This document shows positions 13,694-17,493 of a stretch of DNA of 49,303 nucleotides, in pieces. How positions within the stretch are numbered: position 1 is the first letter of the stretch; each line of letters begins with the position of its first letter. Position numbers and translations under genes: made by a program. The notes below the pieces were generated by a model, which did not search any database, was not told the origin of the DNA, and was given only the letters and a program-made list of their open reading frames with translations. Source of the stretch: an uncultured Pelagibacteraceae bacterium (GTDB lineage Bacteria; Pseudomonadota; Alphaproteobacteria; Pelagibacterales; Pelagibacteraceae); assembly GCA_902572695.1 (NCBI GenBank), contig CACGGZ010000003.1:1-49303 (forward strand), given 5' to 3'.

Positions 13694-13788
13694 TGGCGGT
13701 GAGAGAGGGATTCGAACCCTCGGTACGGCTTTTCAACCGTACGTCGGTTTAGCAAACCGATGGTTTAAACCAACTCACCCATCTCACC
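13694..13788 (-). tRNA. tRNA-Ser (anticodon GCU)
   Basis: On the minus strand the sequence opens GGTGAGA and closes TCTCACC-G-CCA, forming a perfect 7-bp acceptor stem with an encoded CCA. The anticodon arm TCGGT-TTGCTAA-ACCGA has anticodon GCT, reading AGC/AGU serine codons. A long class II variable arm (GTACGGTTGAAAAGCCGTAC) and a T arm (GAGGG TTCGAAT CCCTC) complete the fold. It lies antisense between slt and the RarD-like gene. A TATACT box (13794-13799 on plus as agtata) ends only 5 bases before the mature 5' end, suggesting a very short or absent leader. Confidence 0.97.
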
Positions 13789-13840: not shown

Positions 13841-14714
13841 ATGAAGCAGCATCAATTAAAAGGAGTCATATCTACTATTTCCGCGTCTTTATGGTGGGGA
13901 ATAATAGGTGTCATTTATTTTAAATTCGTATCATTTGCCTCACCATTGGAATTAACAATACATAGAACTATTTGGACAGCATTTTTACTTATTTTGATTA
14001 CCTTTTACTACTCTAAATGGGATGAATTTTTTAAAATTGTAAAAAAAACCCTACAATATAATCATATTATTTATAAGTGGTCTTTTGGTTACAATAAATT
14101 GGTTTACTTGGTTATATGCAGTAAGCACAGAAAAATTATTAGATGCAAGTTTAGGTTATTATATTTTTCCTTTGTTAAGTGTATTTCTTGGGGCATTATT
14201 TCTTAATGAAAAACTAAACAAATACAAAATTATTGCTGTCATTTTGGTGGCCATTTCACTAATTTATTTGCTTATTAAACTTAATGAAATTCCTTGGATT
14301 GGAATATTAGTTGCTATTACCTTCAGTCTATATGGACTAATTAGAAAAAAAATTAAAATTTCATCTGATATTGGTTTACTTATTGAAACATTATTAATAT
14401 CTCCGATTGCAATATTTCTATTCATTTATTTAATGAAAAATAATCTAAATATTTTTTCTATGAAAGAGCCATTACTGTCTTTTTATTTATTTTGGGCTGG
14501 ATTTATGACTTTAGTACCTTTGTTTTTGTACACTATAGGTTTTAATATAGTTGGAATAGGACCAGCCAGTATGATATTTTTTTTAACTCCTACTGCACAA
14601 TTTATTTTAGGTTTAATGTACTTTAATGAACCTTTGGTTTTTGATAAACTTATTGGGTTCGTTTTGATTTGGATTTCAGTAATAATTTATTTAAATGAAT
14701 TACGTAAAGAGTAA
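13841..14714 (+). pseudogene. rarD: RarD-like EamA/DMT permease, apparent single-base frameshift
   Basis: Two adjacent ORFs (13841-14206 and 14085-14714) are the two parts of one RarD-family drug/metabolite transporter. The first gives GVISTISASLWWGIIGVIYFKF and HRTIWTAFLL. The second gives INWFTWLYAVSTEKLLDASLGYYIFPLLSVFLG, matching the start and middle of RarD. The frame changes inside or next to AAAAAAAA at 14041-14048. Removing one A gives a continuous frame KIVKKPYNIIILFISGLLVTINWF and a protein of about 290 residues with 10 membrane segments, the normal RarD length. It could be a true pseudogene, a sequencing or assembly indel, or an expressed gene using poly-A slippage. The 3' end overlaps thiV tail-to-tail by 28 bases. 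Confidence 0.8.
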
Positions 14715-16138
14715 ATAAGGAGAATTAATAGTGGAATTAAAATTGCTACCATAAATGAAATAAAAAGTAAATTTGATAAGATAAAATTGTTAATATAATT
14801 TTCTGAAATTATATTTCCTATTAGAATACTACTTTTAAAATTTTGATTAGGAAAAAAAAGTACACCAGATATTAGTCCTGAAGTTATAGAGACTGTAGCT
14901 ATTTTTGTATTAATCGATTTGTTAAAAAATCCGTAAAATATTGTTATTACTGCTGCACAACAAAATAAGTCTGCAAGTAGAAAAAGGTATAAAATACTGA
15001 GTCCTTTAGAAGAAATGATAAAAGTTATTAAACAAATAATAATAATTATATAATTTGATTTTATCTTAATATTTTTTTTATTAATGTTTTTATTTAGGTC
15101 CCTGCCATTTATTATGAAAACACTCGATATAGCATTTATAAGAGTATCAATAGTGCTTAGCGTTAATGATATTGCTAAAATTAAAATTGCCAGCACAATT
15201 ACTAAGTTTTGATTTTTAAGCATTATTTCGAAAAAAGCTAAATCAGGGACAATTTCAGAATTTATTGAAATTGATATTAGACCTGTATAACCAAACCAAA
15301 AAACAATGGCAAAGGTTATTATAGAAGAATAAATTAAACTTGTTTTTAATATATTATTATTTTTAGCTGAAAAAACTCGCTGCCAATTTCCTTGGTGAAA
15401 TAAATTAGTTGCTGCAACAGCAATAAAAAATGTTAAGAATGCAGTATAGTTTGGTATATAGTCTTTATCGATTAAATTAGAAGATTTATTTTTAATTAAA
15501 TCCCAACTAGATGATCCAAGGTTACCTAAAATAAAATAAATAGATAAAATAATAATAATAGATAAAAAGATAAATTGATACTTATCAGTTTCAATTGATA
15601 ATTTAAATCCACCTTTCAATATATAAGTTAAACAAATTAACAATGTTAAAGCTGATGTTTTCCATAAAGGAGTGTTTGATATATATTTTAGTAAAGAAGA
15701 TATAGCTGTAATTTCTGCTATTAGAAATATTGTTAAATAAAATATTATTAAAAATAAGCATATTTTCAAAACTATCTTACCAAATCGTTTGTCTATAAAT
15801 TCAGTTAAAGAAAGTCCCTTTGGCAATTCTTTTCTAATTTTAGGTCCAAAATTATATAAAAATAACATTGGTGCTGCAGTTCCTAATGCATAACCGGTTA
15901 CAGCGCCTATTCCACCCCATGTGGCTGCTGAGGCGGGTCCAAATAAAATCCAGGCTCCTAAAGCGGACGCTGAAATACTTGATGTTAAAGCAAATGTATT
16001 TTCATTTCTATCGCCTACAATATAATATGAATTATCTAATTTTTTTTTTCTATTAAAATGACCTAAAACTATGAAAATTAGACCCATTAATAAAATTACT
16101 GTCAATGAAGAATTTGAAGATAAATATACTTTTTCCAT
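14687..16138 (-). CDS. thiV: Sodium:solute symporter, TPP-riboswitch-controlled (ThiV-type, thiamine-precursor uptake)
   Basis: The 483-residue protein is a polytopic membrane carrier of the sodium/solute symporter (SSS) family, with about 13 hydrophobic segments. SSS features include YYIVGDRNENTFALTSSISASALGAW, WGGIGAVTGYALG, and LSLTEFIDKRFG-like GLSLTEFIDKRFG. Substrate is inferred from control: a TPP riboswitch lies immediately upstream and its conserved 3' core AAGGGA is the ribosome-binding site. In SAR11 an SSS gene with this arrangement, thiV, has been proposed as the importer of the thiamine pyrimidine precursor HMP. The family and riboswitch are seen; the exact substrate is inference. 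Its 3' end overlaps the RarD-like gene. Confidence 0.85.
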   Translation of the reverse strand: MEKVYLSSNSSLTVILLMGLIFIVLGHFNRKKKLDNSYYIVGDRNENTFALTSSISASALGAWILFGPASAATWGGIGAVTGYALGTAAPMLFLYNFGPKIRKELPKGLSLTEFIDKRFGKIVLKICLFLIIFYLTIFLIAEITAISSLLKYISNTPLWKTSALTLLICLTYILKGGFKLSIETDKYQFIFLSIIIILSIYFILGNLGSSSWDLIKNKSSNLIDKDYIPNYTAFLTFFIAVAATNLFHQGNWQRVFSAKNNNILKTSLIYSSIITFAIVFWFGYTGLISISINSEIVPDLAFFEIMLKNQNLVIVLAILILAISLTLSTIDTLINAISSVFIINGRDLNKNINKKNIKIKSNYIIIIICLITFIISSKGLSILYLFLLADLFCCAAVITIFYGFFNKSINTKIATVSITSGLISGVLFFPNQNFKSSILIGNIISENYINNFILSNLLFISFMVAILIPLLILLIYSLRNSFK

Positions 16139-16203
16139 TTTTCCCTTACTGAATTACCGGTCAGGTTCTTCGGGTATGATCTCAGTCTTTTAGACACCCC
16201 GTT
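16139..16203 (-). promoter_or_regulatory. TPP riboswitch (thi box), compact form
   Basis: The minus strand reads GGGGTGTC, a 4-bp P3 hairpin (GTCT-AAA-AGAC), the thi-box TGAGA, then ACCC closing P2. GAACCTGACC follows with a short CTGA/TCAG hairpin, and then AGTAAGGGA. These are the conserved TPP-aptamer segments in the right order. P3 is minimal, P5 is shortened, and I see no convincing P1. The terminal AAGGG is four bases from the thiV ATG and serves as Shine-Dalgarno, so ligand binding would hide it directly. The element starts right after the umuC stop. Confidence 0.9.
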
Positions 16204-16208
16204 TATTT

Positions 16209-16238
16209 ATCATACACCTATTATTGGAAGTGAGTCAA
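16209..16238 (-). promoter_or_regulatory. Promoter for TPP riboswitch-thiV, inside the umuC 3' end
   Basis: On the minus strand TTGACT (16233-16238) and TATGAT (16209-16214) are separated by 18 bases. The -35 lies in the last umuC codons and the -10 overlaps its TGA stop. The predicted start site is near 16202, at the very first base of the riboswitch, which agrees with the lack of a P1 helix. Confidence 0.65.
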
Positions 16239-17493
16239 ATGATGCTGTATCTATTCTAGATGAATGTTCTCTTCTCATTTTCCAACCTTTGCTTAAACCT
16301 GCATGAGCAATACTAATTGCATATCTTCCATATTTTGAATTTGTGTAATCTATAGCTCTCATTAATTTTTTTGATTTATTCTCTAATAAAGGTGTAAGGA
16401 GATTACGATCATTTTGTTTTGCATCTTTTAAATTTGATAATATTATTCCTGCTTTTTGATATGAATATCCATATTTATATATATCATTTAAAGCCTTAAC
16501 TGCATTCTTTATTAACTCGATGCTGTTGCTAGAAGGAATTGCCAAATCTATTGTTTTTGAATTTGAATAATACTTTTTGTTCTTATCAAATGGACTAGTT
16601 CTGATAAATACAGTTATTGTTTTTGCTAATTGATCGTCTGCTCTGATTTTTTCTGCTGCATTTAAACAATGTGTGACAACTGACTCTTCTAATTCTTCTA
16701 TATTTTTTACTTTTCGCCCGAATGATCTTGAAACACAGCAATTTTTTCTCTTTTCTTGCTCCATTTGTAAATTAATACAAGGTATTCCTCTTAACTCCAT
16801 TGCTGTTTTAGCGCCTAAAACATTTGTCCCCTTTTTTACCCAGGTGTTTGAAACATTTTTTAAGTCATAAGCATTACGAATATTATTCTTATAATAAAAC
16901 TTAGATAATTGCTTTCCAACTCCCCAGACTTTTTCAATAGGAAATTTTTTTAGTTTTTCATCTATATCTTTTTTTAAATACACAACTCCTGTTTTTTCTT
17001 TTTTTGCTATGTGGTTTGCCACCTTGCTTAAGGTTTTAGTAGAGGCTATACCCACACTTGTTGGTATCCCTGTCCATCTAAGTATTCTTGATCTAATTTG
17101 TCTTCCATATTCTTCTATTCCTTCGTGATCCATAAAAGATAGGTCTATAAAAGCTTCATCGATAGAATATATTTCAACTTTAGGTGAAAAGGTTTTTAAT
17201 ACCTTCATTACTCTTCTAGAGATGTCTCCGTATAATGCATAGTTCGAAGAATAGACTTCTATTTTGTTTCTAGTTATTAATTTTTTTACTTTAAAATAAG
17301 GTTCGCCCATTTTTATACCCATATCTTTTGCCTCTTGTGATCTAGATATTACGCAACCATCGTTATTCGACAAAACAACTACAGCTCTTTTTTGTATTTT
17401 TGGTTTAAAAAGCCTTTCACAGGAAACATAGAATGAGTTGCAATCTATGAGGGCTATTATATTTTTTTTAGTGGTGTACTTGATGGATGACAT
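16210..17493 (-). CDS. umuC: DNA polymerase V catalytic subunit UmuC (Y-family)
   Basis: UmuC is the error-prone translesion polymerase activated by cleaved UmuD. The 427-residue protein begins its palm with IIALIDCNSFYVSCERLFKP (catalytic D17), followed by NNDGCVISRSQEAKDMGIKMGEP. The second catalytic pair is in EIYSIDEAFIDLS (D112, E113), then PTSVGIASTKTLSKVANHIAKK. A little-finger domain and the UmuC-specific C-terminus follow (IMRAIDYTNSKYG-like RAIDYTNSKYGR). It overlaps the end of umuD by 26 bases, so the pair is co-translated under the LexA box upstream. Its 3' end hosts the promoter of thiV. Confidence 0.96.
   Translation of the reverse strand: MSSIKYTTKKNIIALIDCNSFYVSCERLFKPKIQKRAVVVLSNNDGCVISRSQEAKDMGIKMGEPYFKVKKLITRNKIEVYSSNYALYGDISRRVMKVLKTFSPKVEIYSIDEAFIDLSFMDHEGIEEYGRQIRSRILRWTGIPTSVGIASTKTLSKVANHIAKKEKTGVVYLKKDIDEKLKKFPIEKVWGVGKQLSKFYYKNNIRNAYDLKNVSNTWVKKGTNVLGAKTAMELRGIPCINLQMEQEKRKNCCVSRSFGRKVKNIEELEESVVTHCLNAAEKIRADDQLAKTITVFIRTSPFDKNKKYYSNSKTIDLAIPSSNSIELIKNAVKALNDIYKYGYSYQKAGIILSNLKDAKQNDRNLLTPLLENKSKKLMRAIDYTNSKYGRYAISIAHAGLSKGWKMRREHSSRIDTASFDSLPIIGV

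Follow-up and report, generated by a model that had tools for sequence, protein, structure and literature searches.

Which compound is sensed by the short thi-box leader in front of a thiV-like symporter gene in SAR11 bacteria, and how could so small an element control that gene? The leader analysed here lies on the minus strand of a 49,303-nt stretch of DNA from an uncultured Pelagibacteraceae bacterium (the window), between umuC and the symporter gene (Table 1). Such leaders are annotated in print as TPP riboswitches in the passages of PMC2704228 and PMC11452348 that deal with them, with PMC11452348 asking for confirmation there, and no demonstration of TPP binding by SAR11 leaders was found in the literature.

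Results

Identity and anatomy of the leader

The Rfam TPP riboswitch model (RF00059) matched the window at 16211-16125 on the minus strand with 41.9 bits (E 8.9e-7), which is under the gathering cut-off of 54.3 bits. In its own genome, a partial assembly (59% complete), this was the sole match (E 1.8e-7). Within the window's genus (g1), 138/169 genomes carried a match at E <= 1, nearly all of them one such element, and none of the 169 scored over the cut-off; for the family the numbers were 209/247 with a match and 16/247 over the cut-off, and in a sample of the class 190/289 genomes scored over it. As the match recurs so widely in the genus, the thiV-leader element is real and a chance match is excluded. 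The sequence-only reading that preceded this work had recognised a thi-box core upstream of the symporter, which the E value of about 1e-6 bears out, and had proposed an Infernal search with RF00059; that search gave a significant E value together with a score under the cut-off and P1 columns that were mostly mismatched. At E up to 1, the region 15800-16500 returned RF00059 and one chance snoRNA match only, and the covariance model of the HMP-PP riboswitch (thiS motif) gave no match there. Carriage of the element by phages was considered and rejected, as viral contigs contained no match to it.

Table 1. Positions of the leader, its promoter and the flanking genes in the window.
Feature	Position	Strand	Remark
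-35 box TTGACT, within umuC 3' end	16233..16238	-	
-10 box TATGAT, containing umuC stop TGA (16212-16210)	16209..16214	-	ends 8 nt before P2 GGGG
umuC, upstream neighbour, promoter in its 3' end	16210..17493	-	PRK03609 E 4e-120, under curated cut-off
Predicted transcription start	16202	-	7 nt 3' of -10 box; inferred from -10 position
P2 5' strand (C GGG)	16198..16201	-	pairs with 16174-16171
P3 hairpin GUCU-AAA-AGAC (4 bp)	16185..16195	-	
J3/2 UGAGA, aminopyrimidine pocket	16180..16184	-	role from PMC3764141, PMC7824784
P2 3' strand (CCC G)	16171..16174	-	Rfam alignment and core parse
P4 5' strand CCU	16163..16165	-	pairs with AGG of Shine-Dalgarno
Collapsed J4/5 (G 16162 opposite A 16147) around P5 ACCGG-UAAU-UCAGU	16147..16162	-	
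Thi-box AGGGA, P4 3' strand and Shine-Dalgarno	16142..16146	-	
Sodium:solute symporter, thiV-like, 483 aa, proposed HMP importer	14687..16138	-	Pfam SSF E 3e-9

For the anatomy, 160 SAR11 loci were parsed, and covariation was assessed from 166 distinct cores. The three-way core of P2, P3 and P4 with a UGAGA J3/2 was present; UGAGA occurred in every parsed core, a constancy that is partly by construction because the parser demanded it, and L5 UAAU and G60 were also retained across the parsed cores. The first P2 pair was standard in 130/166 distinct cores compared with 47% in shuffled sequences, and the second P3 pair was U-A, C-G or U-G in 163/163 compared with 84%. At the outer P5 pair, U-A was found 85 times, A-U 72 times and G-U three times with none unpaired (160/160, compared with 50% shuffled). 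The predicted core fold and the collapsed P4-P5 helix are therefore backed by covariation, and the P3 of 4 bp (GUCU/AGAC) that had been read from the window alone was confirmed.

A start codon lay 2-8 nt (mode 3) downstream of AGG[G/A]A in all 160 loci, which makes the thi-box the Shine-Dalgarno sequence throughout, as had been proposed for the window. The spacing given at that time, four bases, needs correction, since AGGGA (16146-16142) is 3 nt upstream of the symporter ATG (16138).

Collapse of J4/5

Three highly conserved J4/5 nucleotides of the E. coli thiM riboswitch, G60, C77 and G78, recognise the pyrophosphate together with its metal (PMC3764141), C77 and G78 hydrogen-bonding the TPP pyrophosphate directly (PMC7824784). 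The arm of the window element reads CCU-G-ACCGG-UAAU-UCAGU-A-AGG: the J4/5 internal loop has shrunk from 3x3 to 1x1, leaving one nucleotide on each side and no CG, so that the counterpart of C77-G78 is deleted beside an unaltered UGAGA pyrimidine pocket and L5 UAAU. The shortened P5 noted in the sequence-only reading was indeed seen; what that reading missed was that the actual loss is the J4/5 loop.

The loss extends well beyond the window. CG was absent from 88/91 elements of g1 and from all those of g3 (28), g225 (9), g226 (5), g227 (7), g228 (3), g230 and g232, giving 0/142 derived SAR11 elements with C77-G78, compared with 18/18 of the other SAR11 elements, namely all 15 of g2, g229 and g233 and three g1 outliers (L003, L004 and L034). 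The 1x1 position invariably held a G, facing A in 124 cases and G in 36. The arm of g227 differs in detail (CCUGG-AUUG-GUAAUU-CAAU-U-AGG), likewise without CG.

Common drift as the cause of the C77-G78 loss was rejected, as CG was kept in 54/56 elements of other alphaproteobacteria (read by eye) and the collapsed arm was confined to SAR11 in the genomes of the class that were searched. When about 85,000 species genomes were scanned, the collapsed arm turned up in at least 120 stretches, and all 80 among the matches listed were Pelagibacterales. A pattern search of 385 genomes of the class found it in SAR11 only; among 399 genomes of the phylum it returned the window and one chance match outside the class, which lacked ACCC.

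On a ThiV protein tree of 64 rows, the two J4/5 states separated in a single step with support of 100/100. The loss should therefore be counted as one evolutionary event and not 142, and the high counts above are not independent. The depth of this join is unsure because long branches meet at the split.

Three further observations were made on aptamer types. The g1 outliers L003, L004 and L034 carry the CG-type aptamer together with a different ThiV lineage. Genome G018 also carries a g3-like copy (L088), perhaps a contamination of the assembly. The TPP elements L332 and L333, from the alphaproteobacterial family f19, have GCTGCAGGGA at J5/4 and not CGNAGGGA, possibly another change of the pocket.

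P1 and the promoter within umuC

In the Rfam alignment of the window, the P1 positions were mostly mismatched. Across the window's genus, pairing of the P1 flanks (56 distinct loci, Rfam register) was 2.16 of 5 compared with 2.14 +/- 0.10 after shuffling. A P1 formed by slippage or farther upstream was also looked for and rejected, as slips of up to 3 nt gave no excess pairing in the genus, and the three CG-type loci of the genus showed no P1 either. The SAR11 genera g2, g229 and g233 retain P1 (GUUUUC/GAAAAC or GUUC/GAAC), with 4.60 pairs compared with 4.12 +/- 0.15, and other alphaproteobacteria had 3.00 compared with 2.29 +/- 0.13; the detection of P1 in these groups indicates that the test has power. 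Genus g227 may retain a U-A-rich P1. P1 is thus absent from the window's genus, in agreement with the first reading of the window.

The promoter TTGACT-N18-TATGAT, which had been placed inside the end of umuC, scored 10.7 in the window compared with 4.1 for shuffled sequence, and its position is conserved: TTGACT was the best -35 box in 82/91 genus loci, the spacer was 18 in 76/91, and the -10 box ended exactly 8 nt before GGGG in 60/91. The UmuC protein sequence (ASFDS) may account for some of the conservation at -35, yet loci L067 and L072, which fail the protein motif test for the umuC tail, share both boxes. From the position of the promoter, we infer that the transcript begins at the base of P2, near 16202.

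Downstream genes and the thiamin pathway

The symporter of the window also matched TIGR00813 (E 2e-21, under its curated cut-off). The gene after the element in the 160 loci was a symporter in 148, an NMT1/THI5-like binding protein (thiY-like) in seven, a short-chain dehydrogenase in two and a Gcw_chp protein in two, and one locus was cut by a contig end. The seven are g225 loci from seven genomes (L146, L148, L151, L152, L167, L177 and L186) with the collapsed aptamer, so the switch has been transferred between two candidate systems for HMP import. Separately, L124, L130, L133 and L141 of g2 and g233 have P1-bearing CG-type aptamers in front of the short-chain dehydrogenase or Gcw_chp genes, which are unusual targets for a TPP riboswitch.

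No thiC was found in 40 SAR11 genomes, and thiD and thiE were present, fitting HMP users. Among the window's genome and 39 related SAR11 genomes, thiL scored over the cut-off in genus g3 only (6/6); the window's genus and five others gave weak thiL hits only, to proteins of about 342 and 730 aa that resemble PurM and PurL paralogues, and no thiamine pyrophosphokinase (0/27), so that no recognised enzyme accounts for the step from TMP to TPP there. The same loss has been reported in subclade IIIa (PMC10030771). The idea that aptamer type goes with loss of thiL was rejected, because thiL is absent in genera with and without the J4/5 collapse, which makes the gene uninformative on the ligand.

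Discussion

Proposed mechanism

Since both P1 and C77-G78 were looked for and neither was found, the element is filed as a TPP-riboswitch-derived variant and not as a canonical TPP riboswitch. Its most satisfactory explanation, which we regard as probable, is a direct translational OFF switch on the import of a pyrimidine precursor, with TPP as a putative ligand. Transcription would begin where P2 begins, about 64 nt 5' of the ATG, and no P1 would be made. P2, P3, UGAGA and the P4-P5 arm then fold, as covariation shows, with the Shine-Dalgarno AGGGA as the 3' strand of the arm; as the thi-box is itself the Shine-Dalgarno sequence, folding of the aptamer would be enough to conceal the ribosome site. 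A thiamin vitamer bearing the aminopyrimidine would dock in the UGAGA pocket and keep the weak P4-P5 arm shut, denying the ribosome access and thereby blocking uptake of HMP as precursor.

At 20 C, a folding energy of -4.7 kcal/mol is predicted for the P4-P5 arm, compared with -10 to -12 kcal/mol for canonical arms. Without ligand, release of the Shine-Dalgarno sequence is predicted to cost about 3 kcal/mol, so the binding energy of a ligand could decide whether the ribosome gains access. The predicted ligand-free fold mostly pairs the Shine-Dalgarno sequence (probability of being unpaired about 0.3-0.4), and in folding calculations the leader was not more stable than shuffled sequence; for these two reasons no clear ON structure is predicted, and a stable ON structure from folding alone was not convincing.

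The mechanism is plausible and of a known type. In direct translation attenuation, a mode of control known from TPP riboswitches (Barrick and Breaker 2007, PMC2258182), the ribosome-binding site lies within the aptamer core without a separate expression platform, and the same arrangement, with the Shine-Dalgarno sequence in the core, was found in 160/160 SAR11 loci. Unlike the cases in PMC2258182, the window element also lacks P1, and the arrangement is the rule across the clade. The stripped-down translational switch of the sequence-only reading thus survives in its missing P1, its umuC promoter and its thi-box Shine-Dalgarno, but not as a plain TPP riboswitch, because C77-G78 is gone.

The ligand and competing explanations

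The absence of C77-G78 across the clade makes the ligand uncertain. Binding with the geometry of E. coli thiM is unlikely because the J4/5 that reads the pyrophosphate has collapsed; either TPP may bind in an altered way, or the signal may be a smaller vitamer (thiamin, TMP, HMP or its phosphates). Both are sub-cases of the OFF switch set out above. For TPP as ligand, which we consider about an even chance, the element would be an ordinary TPP riboswitch shortened by genome streamlining, in which G60, a purine at the old J5/4 position and Mg2+ suffice for useful binding. UGAGA, L5 UAAU and G60 are all retained, a cell with thiD and thiE must hold TPP, and the passages on SAR11 leaders in PMC2704228 and PMC11452348 carry this annotation. 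However, C77 and G78 are deleted here while 54/56 controls keep both, and in E. coli thiM the pyrophosphate is described as mandatory, with a KD of 50 uM for thiamine compared with 50 nM for TPP, about 1000-fold (PMC4112796). A variant of changed specificity, with thiamin, TMP, HMP or HMP-P/HMP-PP as its putative ligand instead of TPP, is a more tentative possibility. It could explain why the pyrimidine sensor is invariant and the pyrophosphate sensor collapsed, why the element precedes two unrelated candidate HMP import systems and why the change in the aptamer falls at a single split of the transporter tree, although that split may reflect the history of the clade alone.

Two explanations outside the OFF switch were also weighed. 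Nearly all SAR11 elements score under the Rfam cut-off (all but the 16/247 genomes above it) and several leaders are weakly folded, as would be expected of a decayed aptamer that no longer binds a ligand and is retained for its Shine-Dalgarno sequence only; we consider this improbable, as UGAGA and L5 are kept and compensatory changes occur in P2, P3 and P5 over 166 distinct cores. Slightly less probable again is read-through from umuDC, in which a longer transcript would make the usual P1 and an expression platform. The position of umuC directly upstream on the same strand would allow it, but the P1 flanks of the genus pair at the shuffled level, also when slips of up to 3 nt are allowed, and the promoter is fixed 8 nt before P2.

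Relation to known riboswitches

With the E. coli thiM-type TPP riboswitch, the window element shares P2, P3, UGAGA, P4, P5, UAAU, AGGGA and a position before a thiamin-precursor gene; it differs in having no P1, a 1x1 J4/5 with C77-G78 deleted, a much weaker P4-P5 arm and a score under the family cut-off. Like the HMP-PP riboswitch (thiS motif, PMC6478431), it would be a compact sensor of the pyrimidine branch of thiamin, here putative, but the fold of that riboswitch differs, being embedded in a terminator.

A TPP riboswitch before a SAR11 transporter was reported in 2009, in a part of the paper that describes the structured RNAs of Pelagibacter, this one included, as tending to be short (Meyer 2009, PMC2704228). 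The TPP riboswitch of SAR11_0811 (PMC2704228; McRose 2014, PMC4260697) belongs to the same element class, clade and transporter, and the passages of the two papers that concern it do not mention loss of P1 or of pyrophosphate contacts, both of which were found in the window element. A literature search over sources other than Carini 2014 and Rodionov 2002 found no TPP riboswitch without P1 or without C77-G78. The presence of a TPP riboswitch before SAR11 thiV and the burial of the ribosome site within a TPP aptamer are therefore already published, and what is added here is the loss of the pyrophosphate contacts (J4/5 collapse, C77-G78).

The J4/5 loss gives a concrete sequence reason to doubt plain TPP sensing, and natural controls exist in close relatives, where homologous transporters follow elements that retain both P1 and J4/5. 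A changed ligand would call for revision of models in which TPP feeds back on HMP uptake, and the element would then be a TPP-riboswitch variant of new specificity in a bacterial group that ranks among the most abundant of the ocean. If TPP still binds, pyrophosphate contacts thought to be essential would be dispensable.

Additional observations at the locus

At 13841-14714 on the plus strand of the window, two overlapping frames resemble a single EamA/RarD-type transporter gene split by a frameshift, the end of which overlaps the end of the convergent symporter gene by 28 bases. A tRNA-Ser (GCT) gene (13694-13788, minus strand) lies between a transglycosylase gene and this split transporter gene.
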